A stretch of DNA of 64,000 bases from NCBI RefSeq assembly GCF_002261185.1, contig NZ_NEVQ01000021.1, forward strand, positions 62,001 through 126,000, given 5' to 3'. Every line of letters begins with the position of its first letter. Position 1 is the first letter of the stretch. The notes beneath the pieces are model-generated. The model searched no databases. It had not been told where the DNA came from and saw nothing but the letters and a program-made list of their open reading frames with translations. Shown here in pieces: positions 35,845-45,852 of the stretch. The position numbers and the translations under genes are program-made. The DNA is from Bordetella genomosp. 4. Lineage in GTDB: Bacteria > Pseudomonadota > Gammaproteobacteria > Burkholderiales > Burkholderiaceae_B.

Positions 35845-36573
35845 TCATGTAGCATCCGAAGTTTTGTCAATAATCTTCTCGAGATAGTCAAGGTCCTCCC
35901 GAACCAAGCGCAGAGATTCCCGTGCATCTGCTGGCGAGCGCGATCTTCGCGCCTCATCACGCAATAGCGCATTAACTCCCATTTCCGCCATCAGGTCGGC
36001 GACTTCAGCAATGCTCAATCTGCCGGACGGCTTGTACCACCAAGCCGACCAATTGCACATGCCGATGAGACTGAAGGCGGCTACGTGCGCATCAACCATC
36101 CGGAATTGACCTTCACGGATCCCTCGCTCAATTACGCTACTGAAGTTATCGAGCACATTGCGCCGCGCACTTTGCATCGCGGCGCGCTGCTTGCTAGTCA
36201 TATCGGCTTGCGTGCGATCCGCAACTCGAAATTCAGCGGGACGCGACAGTATCAATTGAGCATGTTGAGCCACTAGCGCGCGTAACGCGGACACTGGATC
36301 GAGATCGTCGCGCGCGACCGTATCTCCTGCCAGCTTTCGCGCATCGGCCAGCACCTCTTCTGTCAGCGCTCGCTGAATCGCATCCTTGCTCTTGAAATAG
36401 TAGTAGACGGCAGTACGGCTCAGTCCCAGCCGTTCGGCGATGTCTTGAATACTTGTGCCGGCCGATCCCCTCTCAATGAACAGCTTTGCTGCCACGTCCA
36501 GAATCGCACTTCGCAACGCGTCACCCTTCAGGTTGACCTTTGTCGAAATGTCATTCACCACGATTTTCCTCAT
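35845..36573 (-). CDS. TetR-family repressor of the aromatic-CoA operon
   Basis: The 242-residue protein has the TetR helix-turn-helix at residues 22-66 (AAKLFIERGSAGTSIQDIAERLGLSRTAVYYYFKSKD). The larger C-terminal helical domain is of the type that binds small ligands or CoA thioesters. It is divergent from the aromatic-acid operon; two identical-pattern operator sites (36640-36653 and 36670-36683) lie between them. Release by an aromatic acid or its CoA ester is likely. Confidence 0.93.
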   Translation of the reverse strand: MRKIVVNDISTKVNLKGDALRSAILDVAAKLFIERGSAGTSIQDIAERLGLSRTAVYYYFKSKDAIQRALTEEVLADARKLAGDTVARDDLDPVSALRALVAQHAQLILSRPAEFRVADRTQADMTSKQRAAMQSARRNVLDNFSSVIERGIREGQFRMVDAHVAAFSLIGMCNWSAWWYKPSGRLSIAEVADLMAEMGVNALLRDEARRSRSPADARESLRLVREDLDYLEKIIDKTSDAT

Positions 36574-36639
36574 TGCGATCGTGCATAGCGCCGATACCTG
36601 TCCCTAATTCATCTTTTGCAGTCTCTATTGTCCTCAAAC

Positions 36640-36683
36640 TGACGTACGCGTCAAATTGCTCAAATCAATTGACACTACTGTCA
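36640..36683. promoter_or_regulatory. Two TGAC-N6-GTCA operator sites for the TetR regulator
   Basis: TGAC-GTACGC-GTCA lies at 36640-36653 and TGAC-ACTACT-GTCA at 36670-36683; the second has longer perfect arms (ATTGACA...TGTCAAT, 36668-36685). Their centres are exactly 30 bases apart, about three helical turns, so two TetR dimers would bind the same DNA face. They lie between the divergent TetR and hydrolase genes. Confidence 0.78.
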
Positions 36684-36737
36684 ATAATTCGTCTAATGAG
36701 ACAAATTCGATGCGAGGCACATCTGAAGGAGACCAAT

Positions 36738-37997
36738 GTGACCAAAGAACTGACCACAAATGGGGTCAATGCGGGCTTCCTGAATACCGACTGGAATCCG
36801 CGCGACCTGCCGTCGGGGGCCACGACCCGCAACGTCGTGCTACGCACTGATGACAACGCCGCAACTTCTGGATCTCTGTACTTACCGGCTGGGTATCGGC
36901 CGGATACCGTCGTCTGCGTAATGCATCCCCGCGAGTTCATGGCGTGTCACTACCTCATTCCCGACATCGTGGGATCAGGATGTGCAGCATGGTCGCAAGG
37001 CGCGCGATCCGTCGGTAATGACCTGCGACTGGAGCACGAGATTGCCCTGCATGACGTTGCCGCGGGCATGCGCTTTTTGCGTGATCAAGGTTTCAAGAAC
37101 ATCGTGTTGCTGGGCAACTCAGGAGGCGCGGGCCTCTACAGTCTGTATATCCAACAGTCATCTCTTCCTGCTGCCCAACGAATTGCCCGTACGCCAGGCG
37201 GCAAGCGCAGCGGTCTTCCGGAGTTGGACATGCCCGCAGTCGACGGCATGGTGCTCGTCGGCCCTCACCCTGGCCAGGGCGCGCTGCTCCTTAATTGCAT
37301 CGACCCCTCGGTTGCTGATGAAGATGACGCCCTGTCAGTCGTCGCTGCGCTCGATCCGCTCAGTCCCGACAACGGGTATCGGAAGGCGGGTGAGGCGCGG
37401 TATTCCGCCGAATTCATTGCCAACTACCGCGCAGCCCAACGGAATCGGGTCGCACGACTGGATCAACGCGCCCGCGAGATCATTGCCATGCGGCTTGATG
37501 CGCGCGAGCAGATCAAGACCGGAGCCAACACCTCCGCAGAAGTTCGGAGACGGGCAGCTCACACCCCGGTCATGACTGTCTGGCGTACAGACGCAGACTT
37601 GCGCTGTTTAGATCTCAGCATCGACCCCTCGGATCGTCACCCGGGCTCGCTGTGGGGCAAGGATCCCTACGCATCCAACTTCGGAGCCGTTGGTTTCGCC
37701 CGCTTCTGTACCCCCGAGAGCTGGCTGTCCACATGGTCAGGCCTATCGTCCAACGCCACCCTCGCGTTGACTGCCCCCGCAATCATCCAGCCGACATTGA
37801 TCATCGAATACACCGGCGACCAAGCCTGCTTTCCTGCTGATGTCAGAGACATCCATAACGCGATCAACGCGCAGGATAAACAGCACTTGCGCATCCGAGG
37901 CGATCATCACGGACGCGCATTACTGGAACAGGAAGAGCCCGGCCGATATCAAGCGGGCCGCGAACTTGCCTCCTGGCTGCAAGCACGCTTTCTTTAA
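36738..37997 (+). CDS. Alpha/beta hydrolase of the aromatic-CoA operon
   Basis: The 419-residue protein has an alpha/beta hydrolase pattern: nucleophile Ser128 in LLGNSGGAGL, an acidic residue in EYTGDQACFP and His390/His391 in RGDHHGR. A long middle region separates the two halves. GTG 36738 is the best start because AAGGAG lies about eight bases upstream; the longer frame overlaps the TetR gene. It heads the operon, with the VOC gene 20 bases on. It could open an ester or a ring-cleavage product. Confidence 0.85.
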   Translation: MTKELTTNGVNAGFLNTDWNPRDLPSGATTRNVVLRTDDNAATSGSLYLPAGYRPDTVVCVMHPREFMACHYLIPDIVGSGCAAWSQGARSVGNDLRLEHEIALHDVAAGMRFLRDQGFKNIVLLGNSGGAGLYSLYIQQSSLPAAQRIARTPGGKRSGLPELDMPAVDGMVLVGPHPGQGALLLNCIDPSVADEDDALSVVAALDPLSPDNGYRKAGEARYSAEFIANYRAAQRNRVARLDQRAREIIAMRLDAREQIKTGANTSAEVRRRAAHTPVMTVWRTDADLRCLDLSIDPSDRHPGSLWGKDPYASNFGAVGFARFCTPESWLSTWSGLSSNATLALTAPAIIQPTLIIEYTGDQACFPADVRDIHNAINAQDKQHLRIRGDHHGRALLEQEEPGRYQAGRELASWLQARFL

Positions 37998-38017
37998 CTC
38001 TACATCGGAGTAGCTCA

Positions 38018-38914
38018 ATGATTTCAACTCCTCCCACGCCCCGGTCTTTGGCGCTACATGGCGTTGACCACACGGCACGCCCGACCTGGCGTCTGCGCGA
38101 AACGATCAACTTCTATCGCGATATCTTGGGCCTGCCACTAGTGCACGTTATTTCGGCGCGCGGCTGGGGACCCGAAACGCATCCTGACTTCCTGCACTTT
38201 TTCTTTGACAGCGGCCAGGGCAGCACGATTGCTTTTTTCTACTACCTGGGATCCGACGAGCCAGATTCGGTACGTGCACGCCGTAGCATGCGCCCTCTCC
38301 CTGACGACCATGTCGGCGATGCGACCCATACCGCGTGGCTCGTCCGAGACGAAGACGAACTGAAGGCGTGGAAGCACCGGCTGGAATCCGCCGGGCTGGA
38401 CGTCTCCGTCGAAACCCGTCACGAGGTCATTGAATCCATCTACGTTCGTGATCCCAACGGATATTTCATTGAATTCACTCGCAAGCTTCGCCCCCTGGCG
38501 GCAGTAGATGCCATCGACGCTGCCCTGACCATCCAAGCCGCCATCGAACTCGAAGATGAAGCGATATCCGCCGGCCTGCGCGTCTCCCAAGTGGATCACA
38601 TCTGGGCGCGTAAAGCCGCGCTGCTGGCGTCCGCTGAAGGAGTGGGCTCGAAGCAACTGTCGGGCGTTCGAATCTTTGTGCCACGTGTCGAAGAATTTTC
38701 CGCCCTGGTGCGTAATGCCGAATCGCGTGCTGAATGCGAGGTGCAAGCCGGTGAGTTCTTCGACTGCATACAAAGCACCGGTCCCCTGGAATTCCGGCGC
38801 AAGACGTTGGGACTAAAGCCTGCAGTTTGGTATGGCCTTTTCACCGGTGGCGTAAGCGGAAACATCACCACTATGGACCGAGACCTGGTTCGAATTGAAC
38901 CCGCTGAAGCTTGA
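38018..38914 (+). CDS. Two-module VOC (extradiol-dioxygenase-like) protein
   Basis: The 298-residue protein contains two VOC-like modules. The first keeps a metal triad: His18 (GVDHTARPT), His104 (DATHTAWLV) and Glu152 (GYFIEF). The second starts at VDHIWARK, but I see no matching glutamate. Extradiol dioxygenases of this size usually keep the metal site in the C-terminal module, so this arrangement is unusual. Its place in the operon suggests ring cleavage or a related step on a hydroxylated aromatic. The ribosome site CATCGGAGTAGCTC precedes 38018. Confidence 0.82.
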   Translation: MISTPPTPRSLALHGVDHTARPTWRLRETINFYRDILGLPLVHVISARGWGPETHPDFLHFFFDSGQGSTIAFFYYLGSDEPDSVRARRSMRPLPDDHVGDATHTAWLVRDEDELKAWKHRLESAGLDVSVETRHEVIESIYVRDPNGYFIEFTRKLRPLAAVDAIDAALTIQAAIELEDEAISAGLRVSQVDHIWARKAALLASAEGVGSKQLSGVRIFVPRVEEFSALVRNAESRAECEVQAGEFFDCIQSTGPLEFRRKTLGLKPAVWYGLFTGGVSGNITTMDRDLVRIEPAEA

Positions 38915-38932
38915 TAACGGGGGAGGAGACAC

Positions 38933-40609
38933 ATGCGAGATATTAAATTCCCCATAGAGGGCGTTACGTACCACTCGGACGAACGATCGCAAGCCTATTT
39001 CAAGAGTGGCGCCTGGCGTGCGCAAACAGTCGGTCAAGTCCTGCGCGATACCGCGACTCGTTGCGGCGAGCGCCCTGCACTCATTACCGATCAGGGCACC
39101 CTAACCTTCGCCGAGCTAGACGCGCAAAGTGAAAGACTGGGCGCAGCCCTGCTAGATATCGGGTTAAGTCCAGGCGACCGCGCAATCTTTCAAATGGGCA
39201 CGACCCTTGAGACTGCGGTGACCCTTTTGGCCTGCTACAAGGCTGGAATCATTCCGGTCTGCTCGCTGCCCCAGCATCGCGCGCTCGAGATCGGCCAGCT
39301 TGTCCGGCAATCCGCCGCGCGCTGCTATTTCGTTCAAGCGGACTTCGGCTCCTTTGATCTCGTCGGTTTTGCTAAGGAAATGATGAGATCGCACGACAGC
39401 CTGGAACACCTCATTGTCGCCCGAGGTACTGCCAATGACGCAACCTTGCTTCAGGCGCTAATTGACGACATGCCACTTGAGCAAGCGCGCGCGCGTCTTG
39501 CAAAGGACCAGCCTGGATCCGAAGACGTCTTGGCCTTTCAATTATCCGGCGGCACCACTGGCATTCCGAAGATCATTCCTCGCTTTCACGCTGAGTACCT
39601 GGCACACGCCCTCGCGTGCGCGCGCTTGTACGAAATGGAGGAAGACGATCGAATCATCTGGGCATTGCCGCTCTTGCACAACGCCGCTCAAGTCTACGTG
39701 CTGATGCCCATGATTCTTATAGGGCTTTCCGCGGTCTTGATGCCGCGCGTGGATGTCCCGCGCATGCTGGAATTGATCGAAGAACATCGCGTCACCCGCG
39801 CTATTTCAATTGGTCCCATCGCGCCGCAGTTAATGGCCTACGAGAACTTGGCGCGGCATGATCTGTCGTCTCTGCGGTTATTCACCACGATGAGTGCCGC
39901 CGACCGATTGGAAGATCATCTCAAGGTGCGTTGCTCCAACCTCTTTGGAATTACAGAAGGCTTGCTGCTGGGTACACCTCATACGGCTTCCGAATTTGTC
40001 CGTCACCGGACACAAGGGCGGTCAGGCTGTCCGGAGGACGAAATCCGACTGCTTGATCCAGCTAGCGAACGTCTGGTCGAAGCCGGTCAGATGGGAGAAC
40101 TCTGCTTCCGTGGTCCGGCAACCATACCTGGCTTCTTCGATGCGTCCGAAGCCAATGCGAAAGCATTTACGTCCGACGGCTTCTACCGCACCGGTGACAT
40201 GATGACCGAGGTGGTACATGACGGAAAAACCTATTACGCATTTCAGGGACGGCTACGCGACAACATCAATCGTGGTGGCGAAAAGATCGGCTGCGAAGAA
40301 GTCGAGGCGTTGGTGGGCGCCCACCCGGCAGTGTCTGAGGCGCGACTAGTCGCCATGCCAGACGAGCTATACGGCGAGAAAGGGTGCATTTTCATTGTCC
40401 CTCGGCCTGGCCATCACGCCCCGAGCGTCGAGGAGCTCCTGACGTATCTCGTCGCCCAGGGCCTTGCGAAATACAAATGCCCGGAACGCGTAGAAGAAAT
40501 CGCAGCTTTCCCAGTGACGAAGGTCGGCAAGCTCGACAAGGCAGCACTGCGCAAAACGATCGCCGAAAAGCTCAACAACGAAGCTGAAGCCGCAGGACGA
40601 AAACCATGA
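38933..40609 (+). CDS. EntE/DhbE-like aryl-acid AMP/CoA ligase
   Basis: The 558-residue protein has the adenylation P-loop LSGGTTGIPK (204-213), with the extra glycine seen in EntE/DhbE, and LPLLHN with Asn250 at the place where DhbE binds the 2-hydroxyl group of its substrate. GRLRDNINRGGEKIGCEEVE and the catalytic lysine of KVGKLDKAAL follow. The substrate is therefore likely a 2-hydroxybenzoate such as salicylate, activated as AMP then CoA ester. GGGGGAGGAG precedes the start. No carrier protein or synthase gene is near, favouring catabolism over siderophore synthesis. Confidence 0.88.
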   Translation: MRDIKFPIEGVTYHSDERSQAYFKSGAWRAQTVGQVLRDTATRCGERPALITDQGTLTFAELDAQSERLGAALLDIGLSPGDRAIFQMGTTLETAVTLLACYKAGIIPVCSLPQHRALEIGQLVRQSAARCYFVQADFGSFDLVGFAKEMMRSHDSLEHLIVARGTANDATLLQALIDDMPLEQARARLAKDQPGSEDVLAFQLSGGTTGIPKIIPRFHAEYLAHALACARLYEMEEDDRIIWALPLLHNAAQVYVLMPMILIGLSAVLMPRVDVPRMLELIEEHRVTRAISIGPIAPQLMAYENLARHDLSSLRLFTTMSAADRLEDHLKVRCSNLFGITEGLLLGTPHTASEFVRHRTQGRSGCPEDEIRLLDPASERLVEAGQMGELCFRGPATIPGFFDASEANAKAFTSDGFYRTGDMMTEVVHDGKTYYAFQGRLRDNINRGGEKIGCEEVEALVGAHPAVSEARLVAMPDELYGEKGCIFIVPRPGHHAPSVEELLTYLVAQGLAKYKCPERVEEIAAFPVTKVGKLDKAALRKTIAEKLNNEAEAAGRKP

Positions 40610-41082
40610 TCGCCACCGAATACATCGTCAGCGACTCGCCTTTTGTGATTCGCAGGCGCGTCAAATGGGGCGACTGCGACCCGGCTGGCGTCGTATACAC
40701 CGTCACGTTTAGCGAGTACGTCATCTCCGCAGCGGAGCTTTTCTACGAACGCCTGCTCGGAAATACCCCGCAATCATCCAAGGACGAGCATGGCTTCGGC
40801 ACTCCCACGCGGGCGCTCACCTTCGATTTCCATGCCACCCTTTGGCCCGACCAAGAATTCGACATGACCGTCTCTGTCGAACATATCGGCGAACACACGT
40901 ACACCCTGAACATTACGGGTACTGTGCACGGCAACCCCGCATTTGTGGCGAAGCTCACCCCCATCTGCGTTGCGCGCGGTGAACGCCGGGCAATCCCCAT
41001 TCCCGCCATCATGCGCGACGCCTTGCTCACGTATCAGGCCGCCAATCCGATGGCGGCCCCCTTCCGGAGTCCCCAAATATGA
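40606..41082 (+). CDS. 4-Hydroxybenzoyl-CoA thioesterase-family (hot-dog) protein
   Basis: The 158-residue protein has the hot-dog catalytic pattern WGDCDPAGVVY with Asp25, as in 4HBT-type acyl-CoA thioesterases. It starts inside the stop of the ligase gene (ATGA, 40606) and ends in an ATGA overlap with the monooxygenase (41079). This tight coupling suggests it hydrolyses the hydroxylated aromatic-CoA made by its neighbours, for example gentisyl-CoA (inference). Confidence 0.9.
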   Translation: MIATEYIVSDSPFVIRRRVKWGDCDPAGVVYTVTFSEYVISAAELFYERLLGNTPQSSKDEHGFGTPTRALTFDFHATLWPDQEFDMTVSVEHIGEHTYTLNITGTVHGNPAFVAKLTPICVARGERRAIPIPAIMRDALLTYQAANPMAAPFRSPQI

Positions 41083-42242
41083 AAATTGCAATCATTGGGG
41101 CTGGTCCCGCCGGCCTGTATTTTGCTCTTCTGGCTAAGAAGAACGACCCAGGTCATGACATTCAAGTGTACGAACAGAACCCTCAGGGCGCCACGTACGG
41201 TTGGGGCGTAGTCTTTTCAGACATTGGACTGAACTTTCTGCGGGATGCAGACCCGGATTTCTTCAAAGATTTTATCGCGCATCATGAACGATGCGACTAC
41301 ATGGAGATCGTTCACCGGGACGAGCGGATCCAAGTTCACGGCAATCACTTCTCCCGTACCGCTCGACTCAAAATGCTTCAAGTGCTGGAAAAAGCTTGTG
41401 TCCAGGCCGGCGTTCGAATCAAGTACGACCACCGCGTGGGAGACGTGTCGCTCCTGGCCGCAGAATTCGACATGGTCGTCGCCGCAGACGGATCCAACAG
41501 CCAAACCCGCACTCAACTCGCTCAACACTTTCAACCCACATTCGAAAAGCGACGCAACAAATTCGCCTGGTATGGCACACGCCAACGCTTCCATCCGGTG
41601 TCCTTGATCTTTCGTCAGACTGGACACGGGATCTTTATCGCCCATAGTTATCAATACAGCCCCGAGCTCAGTACCTTTTTGGTCGAGGTCGACCCTGACA
41701 CATGGACACGCGCCGGTCTGAACAACGCCAGCGAAGAGGAAAGCCGCCGTTATTGCGCGGACGTATTTCGCAACGACCTGGGCGCCAACGAGCTTCTCGG
41801 CAATCGCTCGCTCTGGTTCGAAGCGAACATCGTGCGCAATGAAAACTGGTCGCACGGCAACGTCGTGTTGCTCGGCGACGCTCTGCGCACCGTGCACTTC
41901 TCGCTTGGCTCGGGAACACGCATGGCCATGCAGGACGCTATCGCGCTGCACCAGGGGCTTCGACAGTATCCGTCTGATGCACGCGCCGCATTCTCGGTCT
42001 TTGAGTCTCTGCGTCGGTCGCCGTCTACAAGCTTTCAAACCGCCGCCGCGCGCAGCTTGGATTGGTATGAAAACGTTGCAGACAAAATGTACCTGGACCC
42101 CGTTTCCTTCGCCTACGACTACATGCGACGCACAGGACAAGTCAGTCACGAAGACCTGCGTCACCGAGACCCCATCTTTACCGCAGCCTATGAAGCGAGA
42201 ACCGAGCGTACGGGCAAAAAGGACGTCCGGCTCGTCCCATAA
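41079..42242 (+). CDS. FAD monooxygenase resembling salicylyl-CoA 5-hydroxylase
   Basis: The 387-residue protein has the FAD motif IIGAGPAGLYFALLAKK at the N-terminus, GATYGWGVVFSDIGL shared with aromatic acyl-CoA hydroxylases, the DG motif VAADGSNS, and the second FAD motif NVVLLGDALRTVHFSLGSGT. This set is typical of salicylyl-CoA 5-hydroxylase (SdgC type) and the monooxygenase half of 2-aminobenzoyl-CoA monooxygenase/reductase. With the ligase and thioesterase upstream it should hydroxylate an aryl-CoA thioester. Start ATG 41079 overlaps the previous stop. Confidence 0.88.
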   Translation: MKIAIIGAGPAGLYFALLAKKNDPGHDIQVYEQNPQGATYGWGVVFSDIGLNFLRDADPDFFKDFIAHHERCDYMEIVHRDERIQVHGNHFSRTARLKMLQVLEKACVQAGVRIKYDHRVGDVSLLAAEFDMVVAADGSNSQTRTQLAQHFQPTFEKRRNKFAWYGTRQRFHPVSLIFRQTGHGIFIAHSYQYSPELSTFLVEVDPDTWTRAGLNNASEEESRRYCADVFRNDLGANELLGNRSLWFEANIVRNENWSHGNVVLLGDALRTVHFSLGSGTRMAMQDAIALHQGLRQYPSDARAAFSVFESLRRSPSTSFQTAAARSLDWYENVADKMYLDPVSFAYDYMRRTGQVSHEDLRHRDPIFTAAYEARTERTGKKDVRLVP

Positions 42243-42266
42243 AACCACCCATACAATGGGGGAGAC

Positions 42267-43238
42267 ATGAAGAAAACTCTGATTTTTTCCTTGATTGCGT
42301 TCACTGCAGCTTGGAACGCCTACGCGCAAGCACCCGCATATCCCGACCGAAGCGTACGGGCCGTTCTCCCCTACTCCGTAGGAAGTGGCCCCGATGCGGT
42401 CGCTCGAATGGTAGGGGAACAACTCTCGAACGCGTGGAAGCAGCCATTCATCGTCGAAAACAAGCCCGGCGCCAATGGCTGGCTCGCCATCGGCGAGGTC
42501 AAACGGTCCGCCCCGGATGGCTATTCGATTGCCATCGTCGACAACACCCATATGACGTTGCAGCCCCACCTATATAGCAAGATGCCGTTCGACCCCATAC
42601 AGGACTTCACGCCTGTCGCGCCCATATACACGACGAACTTCTTCATTGTCGTCGCAGCGAATTCCCCATGGAAAAACGTGGCCGATCTCGTTGAGGCAGC
42701 GCGTAGGGCCCCGGAGACCTTGACTTATGGAAGTTGGGGAATCGGCAGCGTTGCACACGTCGGAACCACGCTCTTTCAGCAGAAAACGCAGACGTCCATG
42801 GTCCACGTCCCCTTCAAGGAATTGCCGCAGCTGTATACGGCTGTTGCTAACGGAGAGATCAGTTGGGCCTTCGGTACAGCAGCGACCGTGCAGAACCTGT
42901 ACCAGGCCAAACGTGTGAAGCTATTAGCCCTGGCGGCACCGCAACGCCTAAGCCTCTATCCTGATATTCCCACGGTATCTGAGGCTGGAGGGCCCGCGGA
43001 TTTCACGCTCAAGACCTGGGTTGCCGCATTTGTTCCAAAAGGAACGCCATCAGACGTTATTCAAAAAATCGGCGGGTCCATCGCCACCGCGTTGACCACG
43101 CCGGCTTTGCAAGAGCGCTTTCGAACTTTCGGGTTCGAACCCTGGCCCACGGACCCAGCGGGCGTTGCTCGCGCGCAAGAACAAGACTCCGCTCATTTCG
43201 CCGACGTCGTCAAGCAAGCAAACATCTCCCTCAATTGA
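42267..43238 (+). CDS. Bug-family periplasmic receptor of the aromatic-CoA operon
   Basis: The 323-residue protein has a signal peptide ending at AYAQ and the Bug marks YPDRSVRAVLPYSVGSGPD, ENKPGANGWLA and GSVAHVGTTLF. It follows the monooxygenase by 24 bases on the same strand with GGGGGAG upstream, so it is probably the uptake receptor for the aromatic carboxylate metabolised by this operon. That link is inference from position. Confidence 0.93.
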   Translation: MKKTLIFSLIAFTAAWNAYAQAPAYPDRSVRAVLPYSVGSGPDAVARMVGEQLSNAWKQPFIVENKPGANGWLAIGEVKRSAPDGYSIAIVDNTHMTLQPHLYSKMPFDPIQDFTPVAPIYTTNFFIVVAANSPWKNVADLVEAARRAPETLTYGSWGIGSVAHVGTTLFQQKTQTSMVHVPFKELPQLYTAVANGEISWAFGTAATVQNLYQAKRVKLLALAAPQRLSLYPDIPTVSEAGGPADFTLKTWVAAFVPKGTPSDVIQKIGGSIATALTTPALQERFRTFGFEPWPTDPAGVARAQEQDSAHFADVVKQANISLN

Positions 43239-43335: not shown

Positions 43336-43815
43336 CTACGGCGCCCAATGCTCCTTGCCACTCCATTCCGGCCCATGCGCACACAACTTCTGCAACAGTC
43401 TCTCGAAAGTCTGCCGCTCGGCGGATGATAAACACGCCATCATGTCATCCTCTCGCTGCTTCAGTGCTGGCATGAAGGTGTCATGCAGCCGTCGCCCCGC
43501 GGCGGTGATGTAGATGATGAGCCGGCGTTGGTCCTGCGGGTCGGCCTTGCGGCGCACGAGGCCTTTGGACTCCAGGGCCGTGATGGCTCGGCTGATGTTG
43601 TTCTTCAGGTGACCGGAAAAATCGCAGATGTCTGCAGCAGAAATCCCGTCTCTGAAGTACAGAAATATCAGCGAAAGAATTTCGGGCCGCGTCAGACCAT
43701 GGCGGGCCTCAATGGCCCGAAACGACGGCTCGCGGTACGAGTTGATCATGTACCCCAACTTGTAGGCGAACGGAATCGTCACCCCATCGAGGATGTCACT
43801 GAGTGGCTGGTTCAT
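43336..43815 (-). CDS. MarR-family transcriptional regulator
   Basis: The 159-residue protein has the MarR winged helix (ISAADICDFSGHLKNNISRAITALESKG, about residues 54-81) and the basic wing RRKADPQDQRRLI. It is divergent from the alpha/beta hydrolase-Bug operon; the 24-bp perfect palindrome at 43885-43908 lies between the genes and is its probable operator. A 7-bp hairpin (43325-43341) overlaps its stop codon. Confidence 0.92.
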   Translation of the reverse strand: MNQPLSDILDGVTIPFAYKLGYMINSYREPSFRAIEARHGLTRPEILSLIFLYFRDGISAADICDFSGHLKNNISRAITALESKGLVRRKADPQDQRRLIIYITAAGRRLHDTFMPALKQREDDMMACLSSAERQTFERLLQKLCAHGPEWSGKEHWAP

Positions 43816-43884
43816 GGCGTGGTGGCGTTGAGCATCCTACGAGTATAGAACTCTTGCCTGCTCCTAAGGAAAACCCGACCTTCA

Positions 43885-43908
43885 ATATAGTTCCATATGG
43901 AACTATAT
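43885..43908. promoter_or_regulatory. Perfect 24-bp palindrome, MarR operator
   Basis: ATATAGTTCCAT is followed directly by its exact inverted copy. A TATACT at 43914-43919 could be the -10 box of the hydrolase promoter, and the -35 position about 17 bases before it would fall at 43891-43896, inside the palindrome. Binding there would block RNA polymerase, so repression by the MarR protein is expected. Confidence 0.82.
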
Positions 43909-43956
43909 GAGTCTATACTCCGATGCGTTCACACGAAAAAAAAGCAGTCGGAGACA

Positions 43957-44844
43957 ATGAAGCGGACATACCTCTATTCCGGAACGGCGGAACACCCGGT
44001 GTACGCCGATGTGGTGGCATCCGCTGGCGGTGTGCGCAAGCCGCCCATCGTCATGCTGCATGGCGGCTTTCACAATGGCACGGCCTTTTTGGCAACGCCC
44101 GACGGGCGCGAAGGGTGGGCTACTTTCTTTTCGCGCCGGGGCCATGACGTGTATGTCATGGATTGGCCTGGCCACGGCCGCTCTCCGAGTACGCCTGCCT
44201 TCTCGCAACTTTCGATGGCCGACGTCGGGAGGTCCTCGGGCGCCCTGCTGCAGGAAATTGGCCCCGCCATTGTGTTTGCGCACTCTGCAAGCGGACCTGT
44301 TGCCTGGTGGGTGGCAGAGAACTACCGGGCCTTTGTCGTCGCAGTGGTCGGCCTGGCACCTGGTGCACCGGCAAACCTCGTACCTGCGCTTCCACCTGAG
44401 CCTGTTGCCCCTATCGATGGCGACACCACCGGCCATCCCATCTATGCACCGACCGACCGTCCCGCGTTTGTCGACCGAGCGTTCATGAAAGCCTTCTGGG
44501 CCAACAGCCCACGCTTTCCACACGAGGCGTTCGAAGCCTATGCGCGCTCCATCGGACCCGAGAGTCCGCGCATTTTGAATGAACGTTTCAACATTGGCGC
44601 CAGCGGCTTGCACCTGACGGATACCGCACAACTCCATGGCCTGCCCATGCTCGTGCTGACGGGCGATCAGGACCCTCGTCATCCGAAAGACGTCGACGGC
44701 GCACTTGCCGCGTTCCTGGGGGCCGACTTTGTCTGGCTGCCTGATGTGGGCATCACAGGCAATGGTCATATGTTGATGATGGAAGACAACCACGAACAAC
44801 TGGCGGAACTCATCAGCCGCTGGCTCGCCGAAAAAGGCCTTTAA
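43957..44844 (+). CDS. Alpha/beta hydrolase
   Basis: The 295-residue protein has the nucleophile elbow FAHSASGP with Ser110, an oxyanion HGG motif (MLHGGFHNG), Asp237 in TGDQDPRHP and His271 in GNGHML, forming the usual triad. ATG 43957 follows CGGAG; the frame open to 43897 would start inside the operator. It is followed 21 bases later by a Bug receptor and controlled by the divergent MarR gene. The substrate is unknown, probably an ester taken up through the Bug receptor or its product. Confidence 0.9.
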   Translation: MKRTYLYSGTAEHPVYADVVASAGGVRKPPIVMLHGGFHNGTAFLATPDGREGWATFFSRRGHDVYVMDWPGHGRSPSTPAFSQLSMADVGRSSGALLQEIGPAIVFAHSASGPVAWWVAENYRAFVVAVVGLAPGAPANLVPALPPEPVAPIDGDTTGHPIYAPTDRPAFVDRAFMKAFWANSPRFPHEAFEAYARSIGPESPRILNERFNIGASGLHLTDTAQLHGLPMLVLTGDQDPRHPKDVDGALAAFLGADFVWLPDVGITGNGHMLMMEDNHEQLAELISRWLAEKGL

Positions 44845-44865
44845 GGCTGAAAAAAAGGAGACAAC

Positions 44866-45852
44866 ATGCCATCACACTTCACACGCCGCAAGGCGCTGCG
44901 CGCCCTGACCCTGCCGGCGCTTGGCGTCGCGCTGGCTGGCTGGGCGCAAACCAGCGTCTCCGCCTCACGTCCCATCAAGATCATCGTCCCATGGGCGGCT
45001 GGCGGCGGTGGTGATGCCTTGGTCCGTGTCATAGGGCCGGTGTTGTCAAAGCGCCTCGGGCAGTCGGTCATCATAGAGAATCGTCCCGGAGCCATCGGCA
45101 CAATCGGTAGCCTCGCGGGCGCCAGAAGTCCGGCGGATGGCCACACCCTGATTTATGGCAGCGCAGACTCGCACTCCATTGCGCCGCACATTCTCAACCC
45201 GCCGCCATTTGATGCAAAGAAGGACTTCGTGGCGATAGCCGCCCTGGGCTTCACGCCGCTGACGGTGATGGTGCACGCCTCGCATCCGGCAAAAACCTTG
45301 GAAGAATTCCTGCAAATGGCCCGCCAGGCCACAGAGTCCTTGACCTACGGCTCCTGGGGCCAGGGCAGCTCCGGGCACATCATCATGGAAGTCCTCAAGC
45401 AGACCACCCATACCCCGCTGCTGGCAGTGCCCTACAACGGCACGGCCCCTCTGATGCAGGCGCAACTCGGCCAACAAATCGACTGCGCCATCATCCCCAC
45501 CATGGTGGCGGAACAACATGTGGCGGCAGGCACGATCCGGATGCTCGCCGTTACCGCCCCCCAGCGCCTGTCGGCGCATTCCGATGTCCCGACCCTGAAA
45601 GAGTTCGGTGTAGATATCGACATTGGACCTTGGCTGGGATTCGTGGCGCCTGCAAAAACGCCCGCCGATGTGGTGGCACGCCTTCACGCTGCTATCGCAA
45701 GTGCATTGACCGATGCTGGGTTGGCAGAGAGCATGCGTCAAATGTCGATGGTGATGACGCCGATGAGCGTTGGTGAGTACCAGGAGTTTTACGAGCGTGA
45801 GTATGACCGGTGGGGTAACTACATCCGGGCGGCAAACATCTCGTTGAGTTAA
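44866..45852 (+). CDS. Bug-family periplasmic receptor downstream of the hydrolase
   Basis: The 328-residue protein has a twin-arginine-like leader (RRKALRALTLP), then the Bug pattern IKIIVPWAAGGGGDALVRV, ENRPGAIGTIGS and QGSSGHIIMEV. AAAAAGGAG precedes the start. The two-gene unit hydrolase-Bug is under the divergent MarR gene. It converges on the GlxA-type gene with a gap of only 15 bases. Confidence 0.93.
   Translation: MPSHFTRRKALRALTLPALGVALAGWAQTSVSASRPIKIIVPWAAGGGGDALVRVIGPVLSKRLGQSVIIENRPGAIGTIGSLAGARSPADGHTLIYGSADSHSIAPHILNPPPFDAKKDFVAIAALGFTPLTVMVHASHPAKTLEEFLQMARQATESLTYGSWGQGSSGHIIMEVLKQTTHTPLLAVPYNGTAPLMQAQLGQQIDCAIIPTMVAEQHVAAGTIRMLAVTAPQRLSAHSDVPTLKEFGVDIDIGPWLGFVAPAKTPADVVARLHAAIASALTDAGLAESMRQMSMVMTPMSVGEYQEFYEREYDRWGNYIRAANISLS

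Follow-up and report, generated by a model that had tools for sequence, protein, structure and literature searches.

The window analysed here is a stretch of 64,000 nucleotides from Bordetella genomosp. 4 (contig NZ_NEVQ01000021.1, positions 62,001 to 126,000), and the element of interest is an operon that faces a TetR-family regulator gene. The best reading of this operon, and one that is supported, is the coenzyme A (CoA)-dependent hydroxylation of a 2-hydroxy aromatic acid. The ligase, hydroxylase, thioesterase and Bug receptor are ordinary parts. The unusual feature is a lower pathway with neither cupin nor FAH in the operon, together with a vicinal oxygen chelate (VOC) enzyme that carries an effector-like part. 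The complete proposal, an operon that breaks down a salicylate-type (2-hydroxybenzoate-type) acid and whose VOC enzyme, with its effector, opens the ring, is given a chance that falls slightly short of even.

In the proposed pathway, the acid would be taken up and converted to its CoA thioester by an EntE-like ligase. The flavin adenine dinucleotide (FAD) enzyme would hydroxylate the ring para to the 2-hydroxyl, giving 2,5-dihydroxybenzoyl-CoA, from which the thioesterase would free the acid. Ring opening would then fall to the VOC enzyme, acting as a 2-His-1-Glu metal-dependent dioxygenase instead of a cupin. The MmoB/DmpM-like domain, C-terminal here and separate in other genomes, may serve as an effector that controls active-site access or the use of O2. 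An alpha/beta hydrolase (ABH1) would cleave the maleylpyruvate-type product into maleate and pyruvate, and a maleate isomerase, for which many relatives have a gene in the operon and this genome has one at another place, would convert maleate to fumarate. The substrate, the metal, the order of hydrolysis and cleavage, each reaction and the role of the effector are all put forward as parts of this model.

A CoA-mediated salicylate route is known from Streptomyces (sdgABCD), and in routes of this kind the gentisate is opened by a cupin dioxygenase. The route of Rhizobium sp. X9, as outlined in a citing article, leads to gentisate (Zhou et al. 2021, as cited in PMC11335346). The window resembles both routes in its acid ligase, its FAD 5-hydroxylase for the CoA ester and its thioesterase. 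It differs from them in the VOC protein with its effector domain and in ABH1, to which the operons of relatives add a maleate isomerase. Among the open-literature matches listed, only one paper brought gentisate and vicinal oxygen chelate together, and it dealt with bacillithiol transferases. The original prediction for this DNA was a CoA-dependent aromatic hydroxylation operon of unusual make-up, in which the substrate or the ring opening may be new. The hydroxylation and the exchange of a cupin for a VOC protein and a hydrolase have stood, whereas a two-module VOC protein has not, and the gene set is not peculiar to this genome.

The VOC Protein and Its Effector-Like Domain

The VOC protein has a single glyoxalase module by Pfam (residues 16-153). 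Tandem VOC modules are ruled out by Pfam, by the AlphaFold model (mean pLDDT 92.6, pTM 0.89) and by the structural matches, and the part at about residues 215-298 has the MmoB/DmpM effector fold. Residues H18, H104 and E152 are invariant in the 42 aligned VOC rows and line up with the H, H and E of 9u42, a structure from Acinetobacter titled homogentisate 1,2-dioxygenase. The VOC fold and the 2-His-1-Glu pattern are thus present, and the three residues are proposed from the alignment as metal ligands.

Among solved relatives, 9u42 itself ranks first both in sequence similarity (profile match E 9.1e-20, VOC positions 12-163) and in Foldseek E-value. It shares the VOC module and the H-H-E pattern, and by its title it acts on a 2,5-dihydroxyphenyl acid. 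It differs in its length of 182 residues, too short for an effector domain, against 298 in the window protein, whose gene has neighbours other than hppD and fahA. In Ideonella a short VOC relative that lacks the extra domain is flanked by hppD and fahA, and in an Acinetobacter one follows fahA and maiA. The relation to 9u42, the aligned ligands and these neighbours of the short relatives support a role for the VOC protein as the opener of a 2,5-dihydroxyphenyl acid. None of the open-literature matches listed was, by title, a publication fitting 9u42. A short VOC gene is also found in a mini-module of Variovorax sp. SRS16 (L149:3853-8533), with a Bug receptor, an alpha/beta hydrolase, an FAD oxidoreductase and a DUF2783 protein, and with no effector domain.

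Type I extradiol dioxygenases consist of two tandem VOC modules and act on catechols. The window protein is like the BphC and XylE types in its fold and 2-His-1-Glu pattern. It is unlike them in having one module, and it misses their cut-offs (TIGR03213, 21.9 against 366.45 bits; TIGR03211, 16.7 against 320.2 bits).

The effector fold of residues 215-298 was identified by structural match, and in some genomes, among them those of Cupriavidus pinatubonensis and Rhodococcus qingshengii, the effector-like part is a separate gene that is not fused to the VOC gene. A chance match is countered by 100 column shuffles, the best of which reached 18.5 against a real score of 41.1, and by five unrelated profiles, with a probability of <1%. 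The profile alignments span the domain's first half (48-49 columns), and the second half therefore rests on structure.

Known effectors of the MmoB, DmpM and T4moD kind (PF02406) serve diiron hydroxylases, and to our knowledge they have so far been tied to diiron monooxygenases. Here the effector-like domain is instead paired with a VOC protein, to which it is often fused. There is no diiron hydroxylase among the ten window proteins scanned, seven of which are TetR and the operon; other loci were not scanned for one. No precedent for pairing MmoB with a glyoxalase was found in the open literature, and a published account may exist, as subscription journals were mostly outside the search; nor does any open-literature paper combine three of the terms MmoB, extradiol, vicinal oxygen chelate and effector protein. 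A tentative proposal, possible rather than probable, is a new kind of two-component oxygenase, in which a VOC dioxygenase with a mononuclear metal site would cleave the ring in dependence on an MmoB/DmpM-type effector, fused or separate. Its substrate would be gentisate or gentisyl-CoA, in a second gentisate pathway that needs no cupin and would be spread across Proteobacteria and Actinobacteria. A VOC gene with a separate effector-like gene was also seen on the Mycobacterium avium plasmid pP7a (L113:4514-9384), where their neighbours encode a P450 and an FAD oxidoreductase; ligase and ABH1 are unannotated in that stretch.

Operon Layout, Ligase and Hydroxylase

The reading frames and family matches agree with the predicted arrangement, in which a TetR gene faces an operon of hydrolase, VOC protein, ligase, thioesterase, hydroxylase and Bug receptor (Table 1). 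All reading frames of the operon are present and intact. Overlaps of 4 nt join the thioesterase gene to the ligase gene before it and to the hydroxylase gene after it, and the remaining gaps measure 18-24 nt. The start of ABH1 is most likely the GTG at 36738, behind AAGGAG, rather than the mechanically called TTG within tetR. Both palindromes are situated between these two genes. Scans for sigma-70 promoters and terminators gave counts no higher than in shuffles. A second small unit follows 3′ of the operon (43336-45852), with a MarR gene on the minus strand and, on the plus strand, genes for an alpha/beta hydrolase and a further Bug/TctC receptor; it is outside the conserved set.

Table 1. 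Features of the operon region (window positions)
Feature	Position	Strand	Remarks
TetR-family regulator	35845..36573	-	Divergent from operon; PF00440 + PF17932
Palindrome, 5-bp arms, candidate TetR operator	36640..36653	.	Putative function
Palindrome, 7-bp arms, candidate TetR operator	36668..36685	.	Putative function
ABH1, alpha/beta hydrolase, 419 aa	36738..37997	+	Proposed to hydrolyse ring-cleavage product
VOC protein, 298 aa, VOC module + effector-like domain	38018..38914	+	Proposed ring-cleaving dioxygenase
VOC (glyoxalase/dioxygenase) module, residues about 10-160	38045..38497	+	PF00903 3.1e-15; proposed metal ligands H18, H104, E152
MmoB/DmpM-like effector domain, residues 215-298	38660..38911	+	
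EntE/DhbE-like aryl-acid ligase with HN pair	38933..40609	+	
Hot-dog thioesterase (4HBT_2)	40606..41082	+	PF13279 4.4e-14
FAD hydroxylase, salicylyl-CoA 5-hydroxylase / VioD group	41079..42242	+	NF006101 8.2e-113; VioD best PDB match by sequence; tree
Bug/TctC periplasmic receptor	42267..43238	+	PF03401 2.5e-62; probably substrate uptake

The ligase is EntE/DhbE-like, as predicted, and scores 362 bits against TIGR02275, under the cut-off of 723.55. The HN pair is kept in 84 of 84 aligned ligases. For ABH1, no Pfam family was found over its cut-off, and a Ser/Asp/His triad is invariant in 41 rows.

Among 50 families, the best profile for the hydroxylase is NF006101 (salicylyl-CoA 5-hydroxylase/oxidoreductase), with 378 bits over residues 1-378; VioD is next with 236. 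The score is under the NF006101 cut-off of 1078 bits, which was made for a bifunctional model of 768 positions, while the window protein has 387 residues and no oxidoreductase half. The hydroxylase tree drew on 34 of the 78 loci with this gene and on one outgroup row. It places the window hydroxylase in a fully supported clade of 27 rows, and the other hydroxylases of VOC operons in several parts. A single hydroxylase clade for all VOC operons is thereby rejected, and this scatter suggests that the VOC protein, the effector and ABH1 form the steadier core. Two rows (L111, L119) and the outgroup have very long branches, and nothing was drawn from them. A position of the monooxygenase away from the aryl-CoA hydroxylases was not seen, the aryl-CoA profile being the best match; the tree, with its one outgroup row, tests this placement little.

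Distribution, Maleate Isomerase and the Cupin

The comparison rests on the best 80 of 186 confirmed relatives of the VOC protein in reference genomes. Each locus extends up to 10 kb either side or to the contig end, so that a gene missing from a locus may still be present in the genome. Two of the six search peptides fall within the C-terminal domain, and the presence of the effector domain in all 80 loci is therefore partly a matter of selection. This selection bears less on the split VOC/effector cases and on 17 VOC relatives that lack the C-terminal domain.

Relatives of the ligase are present in 80 of these loci (in L078 as a copy about 8 kb off, on the opposite strand), ABH1 in 79, the hydroxylase in 78, TetR in 73, the thioesterase in 56 (58 by profile), a maleate isomerase in 51 and Bug in 31, some of the last distant. 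This recurrence, with the isomerase in 51 loci, places the gene content and clustering far beyond chance, and the set is not peculiar to this genome. Uptake genes vary among the loci: Bug, relatives of aromatic-acid/proton symporters, or ATP-binding cassette (ABC) uptake genes. Versions also occur in Rhodococcus, Tistrella, Tsukamurella, Pseudosulfitobacter and on Streptomyces plasmids; some of these have one or another member unannotated in the stretch, and the hydroxylase is unannotated in two, including Streptomyces chartreusis. The gene set is thus widespread in bacteria and probably degrades salicylate-like compounds. The long VOC gene is present in two of nine genomes searched of the host's genus, and the operon is accordingly patchy there.

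Two kinds of variant stand apart. A divergent cluster type (L093, L096, L098, L099, L101-L105) has a ligase and a hydroxylase about 37-41% identical to those of the window, has other gene orders and possibly serves another substrate. Four Pseudomonas loci (L036, L037, L045, L061) carry genes ahead of ABH1 that read as an aldehyde dehydrogenase and a ketosteroid-dehydrogenase-like FAD protein (L045 was scanned), together with two proteins of the short-chain dehydrogenase/reductase (SDR) type and a small NTF2-like protein. These perhaps feed the operon from a larger substrate.

The additional gene type (L056:15612-16373) has as its nearest solved structure the maleate cis-trans isomerase 4fq7 (E 1.9e-88; arylmalonate decarboxylase, 1.3e-11). 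No NCBIfam model reached its cut-off (best EutA, 82.8 of 318 bits). In several genomes the operon itself contains the gene, which in L079 separates the ligase and thioesterase genes; the window's operon lacks it. The 29 loci without it represent 26 genomes, and each of these 26 carries a relative at another place; the copy in the window's genome lies at C1:19223-19954 and is 60% identical. In a set of 61 genomes related to that of the window, the isomerase is found in 7/7 with the long VOC gene versus 12/54 without it. Its presence in operons, in all 26 remaining genomes and in all seven long-VOC relatives makes a pathway through maleate most likely. A pair of genes for a Bug-like receptor and a maleate isomerase, with a divergent LysR-like gene, was read by eye in the window's genome, outside the window, at C1:18142-19969 (L154:6143-7970). 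The close relative 4fq7 we take to be NicE of nicotinate breakdown. Pyridine-pathway genes were not noticed in the operons and were not searched by family. A nicotinate-like pyridine substrate, which the isomerase might suggest, is not favoured, as no amidase or deformylase was seen by eye in the clusters of at least 12 loci, again without a family search. No open-literature paper was found that joins maleate isomerase, salicylate and glyoxalase.

The predicted lack of a cupin gentisate dioxygenase is confirmed for the window's genome (5.5 Mb, 23 contigs, completeness 100), where TIGR02272 has no match at E <= 0.001. Five comparison loci, with hydroxylases 39-44% identical to that of the window and no VOC set, were chosen from 40 listed of 178 records. 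Rhizobium AB2/73 has a cupin with maleylpyruvate isomerase and FAH annotations, RW1 a gene annotated as gentisate 1,2-dioxygenase (cupin), and Caballeronia SBC1 a cupin, a thioesterase, FAH and an Asp/Glu racemase-family gene. The idea that the VOC protein and hydrolase take the place of the cupin is in keeping with these three, two of which have FAH, and not with the other two, described below. By analogy, the VOC protein and ABH1 appear to occupy the places of cupin and FAH in operons of the window's kind.

Alternative Explanations and Significance

Several observations weigh against this reading. Fifty of the 80 loci, from 49 genomes, entered a check for the cupin: 46 genomes have some TIGR02272 match, 38 have one over the cut-off and three have none at E <= 0.001. 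Among the 61 relatives, the cupin is found in 6/7 with the long VOC gene versus 12/54 without it, and in Streptomyces chartreusis a cupin/FAH/maleylpyruvate isomerase set is located beside the VOC set. General replacement of the cupin is rejected on the 38 carriers; its loss applies to the window's genome and a minority only, and the cupin goes with the long VOC gene. No cupin was found in the stretches read of the other two comparison loci, Rhizobium leguminosarum Norway, whose hydroxylase is annotated as part of a ligase protein, and Phyllobacterium T1293, where the cluster is beta-oxidation-like. The Foldseek match to 9u42 (E 2.0e-10) yet superposes poorly (TM 0.22/0.37, rmsd 17.8), and 9u42 is not among the listed VIA structural matches, where methylmalonyl-CoA epimerases (Z 11.7) are level with BphC (11.0), so that the fold leaves the reaction undecided. 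The PF02406 gathering score of 25 bits is unmet (best 16.2, a Rhodococcus subunit), with matches in 5 of 23 members and none in the window's domain. In fold ABH1 resembles esterases and lipases, and no named family was assigned to it. By profile, 22 of the 80 loci lack the thioesterase. The ligase residues after the HN pair differ from those of DhbE, PchD and salicylate-AMP ligase, which makes salicylate only the leading candidate.

These points can be read in other ways. Cleavage may take place at the level of the CoA ester, with the VOC enzyme opening 2,5-dihydroxybenzoyl-CoA, ABH1 hydrolysing the resulting thioester and the hot-dog thioesterase in an auxiliary or rescue role. If cupin and VOC enzyme cleaved different substrates, their coexistence in 38 of 49 carriers would be explained, and ABH1 is more constant among the loci than the thioesterase. 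This is judged unlikely; the thioesterase gene overlaps both ligase and hydroxylase genes in the window, and alpha-keto thioester products are unusual as a matter of general knowledge. A low probability is likewise assigned to unchanged chemistry on a substituted or amino-salicylate, or on a larger 2-hydroxyaryl acid. The divergent ligase residues, the gentisate cupin that many carriers also own and the varied extra genes beside the operon in Pseudomonas and Paraburkholderia are in its favour. However, maleate as an end product suits an unsubstituted ring, and the clusters read by eye in at least 12 loci add regulators, transporters and the isomerase only; deaminases, dehalogenases and amidases were not searched by family.

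It is quite improbable that the VOC protein is instead a lyase, isomerase or binding protein, with gentisate leaving the operon to be cleaved by a cupin elsewhere. VOC folds do serve many reactions, the best structural matches include epimerases and glyoxalases, and most carriers have a cupin over the cut-off. Such a cupin is, however, unmatched in the window's genome and in three carriers, and the solved structure closest in sequence bears the title of a homogentisate dioxygenase.

If ring opening by the VOC enzyme with its effector is correct, many soil and plant-associated bacteria would possess a second, unrelated way of opening gentisate-type rings, one that goes unseen under the labels now in use (“VOC family protein”, “hypothetical protein”, “alpha/beta hydrolase”). 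The role of the effector can be tested directly with genomes that encode VOC protein and effector separately. The effector proteins of methane, phenol and toluene monooxygenases would then be able to serve a quite different oxygenase.

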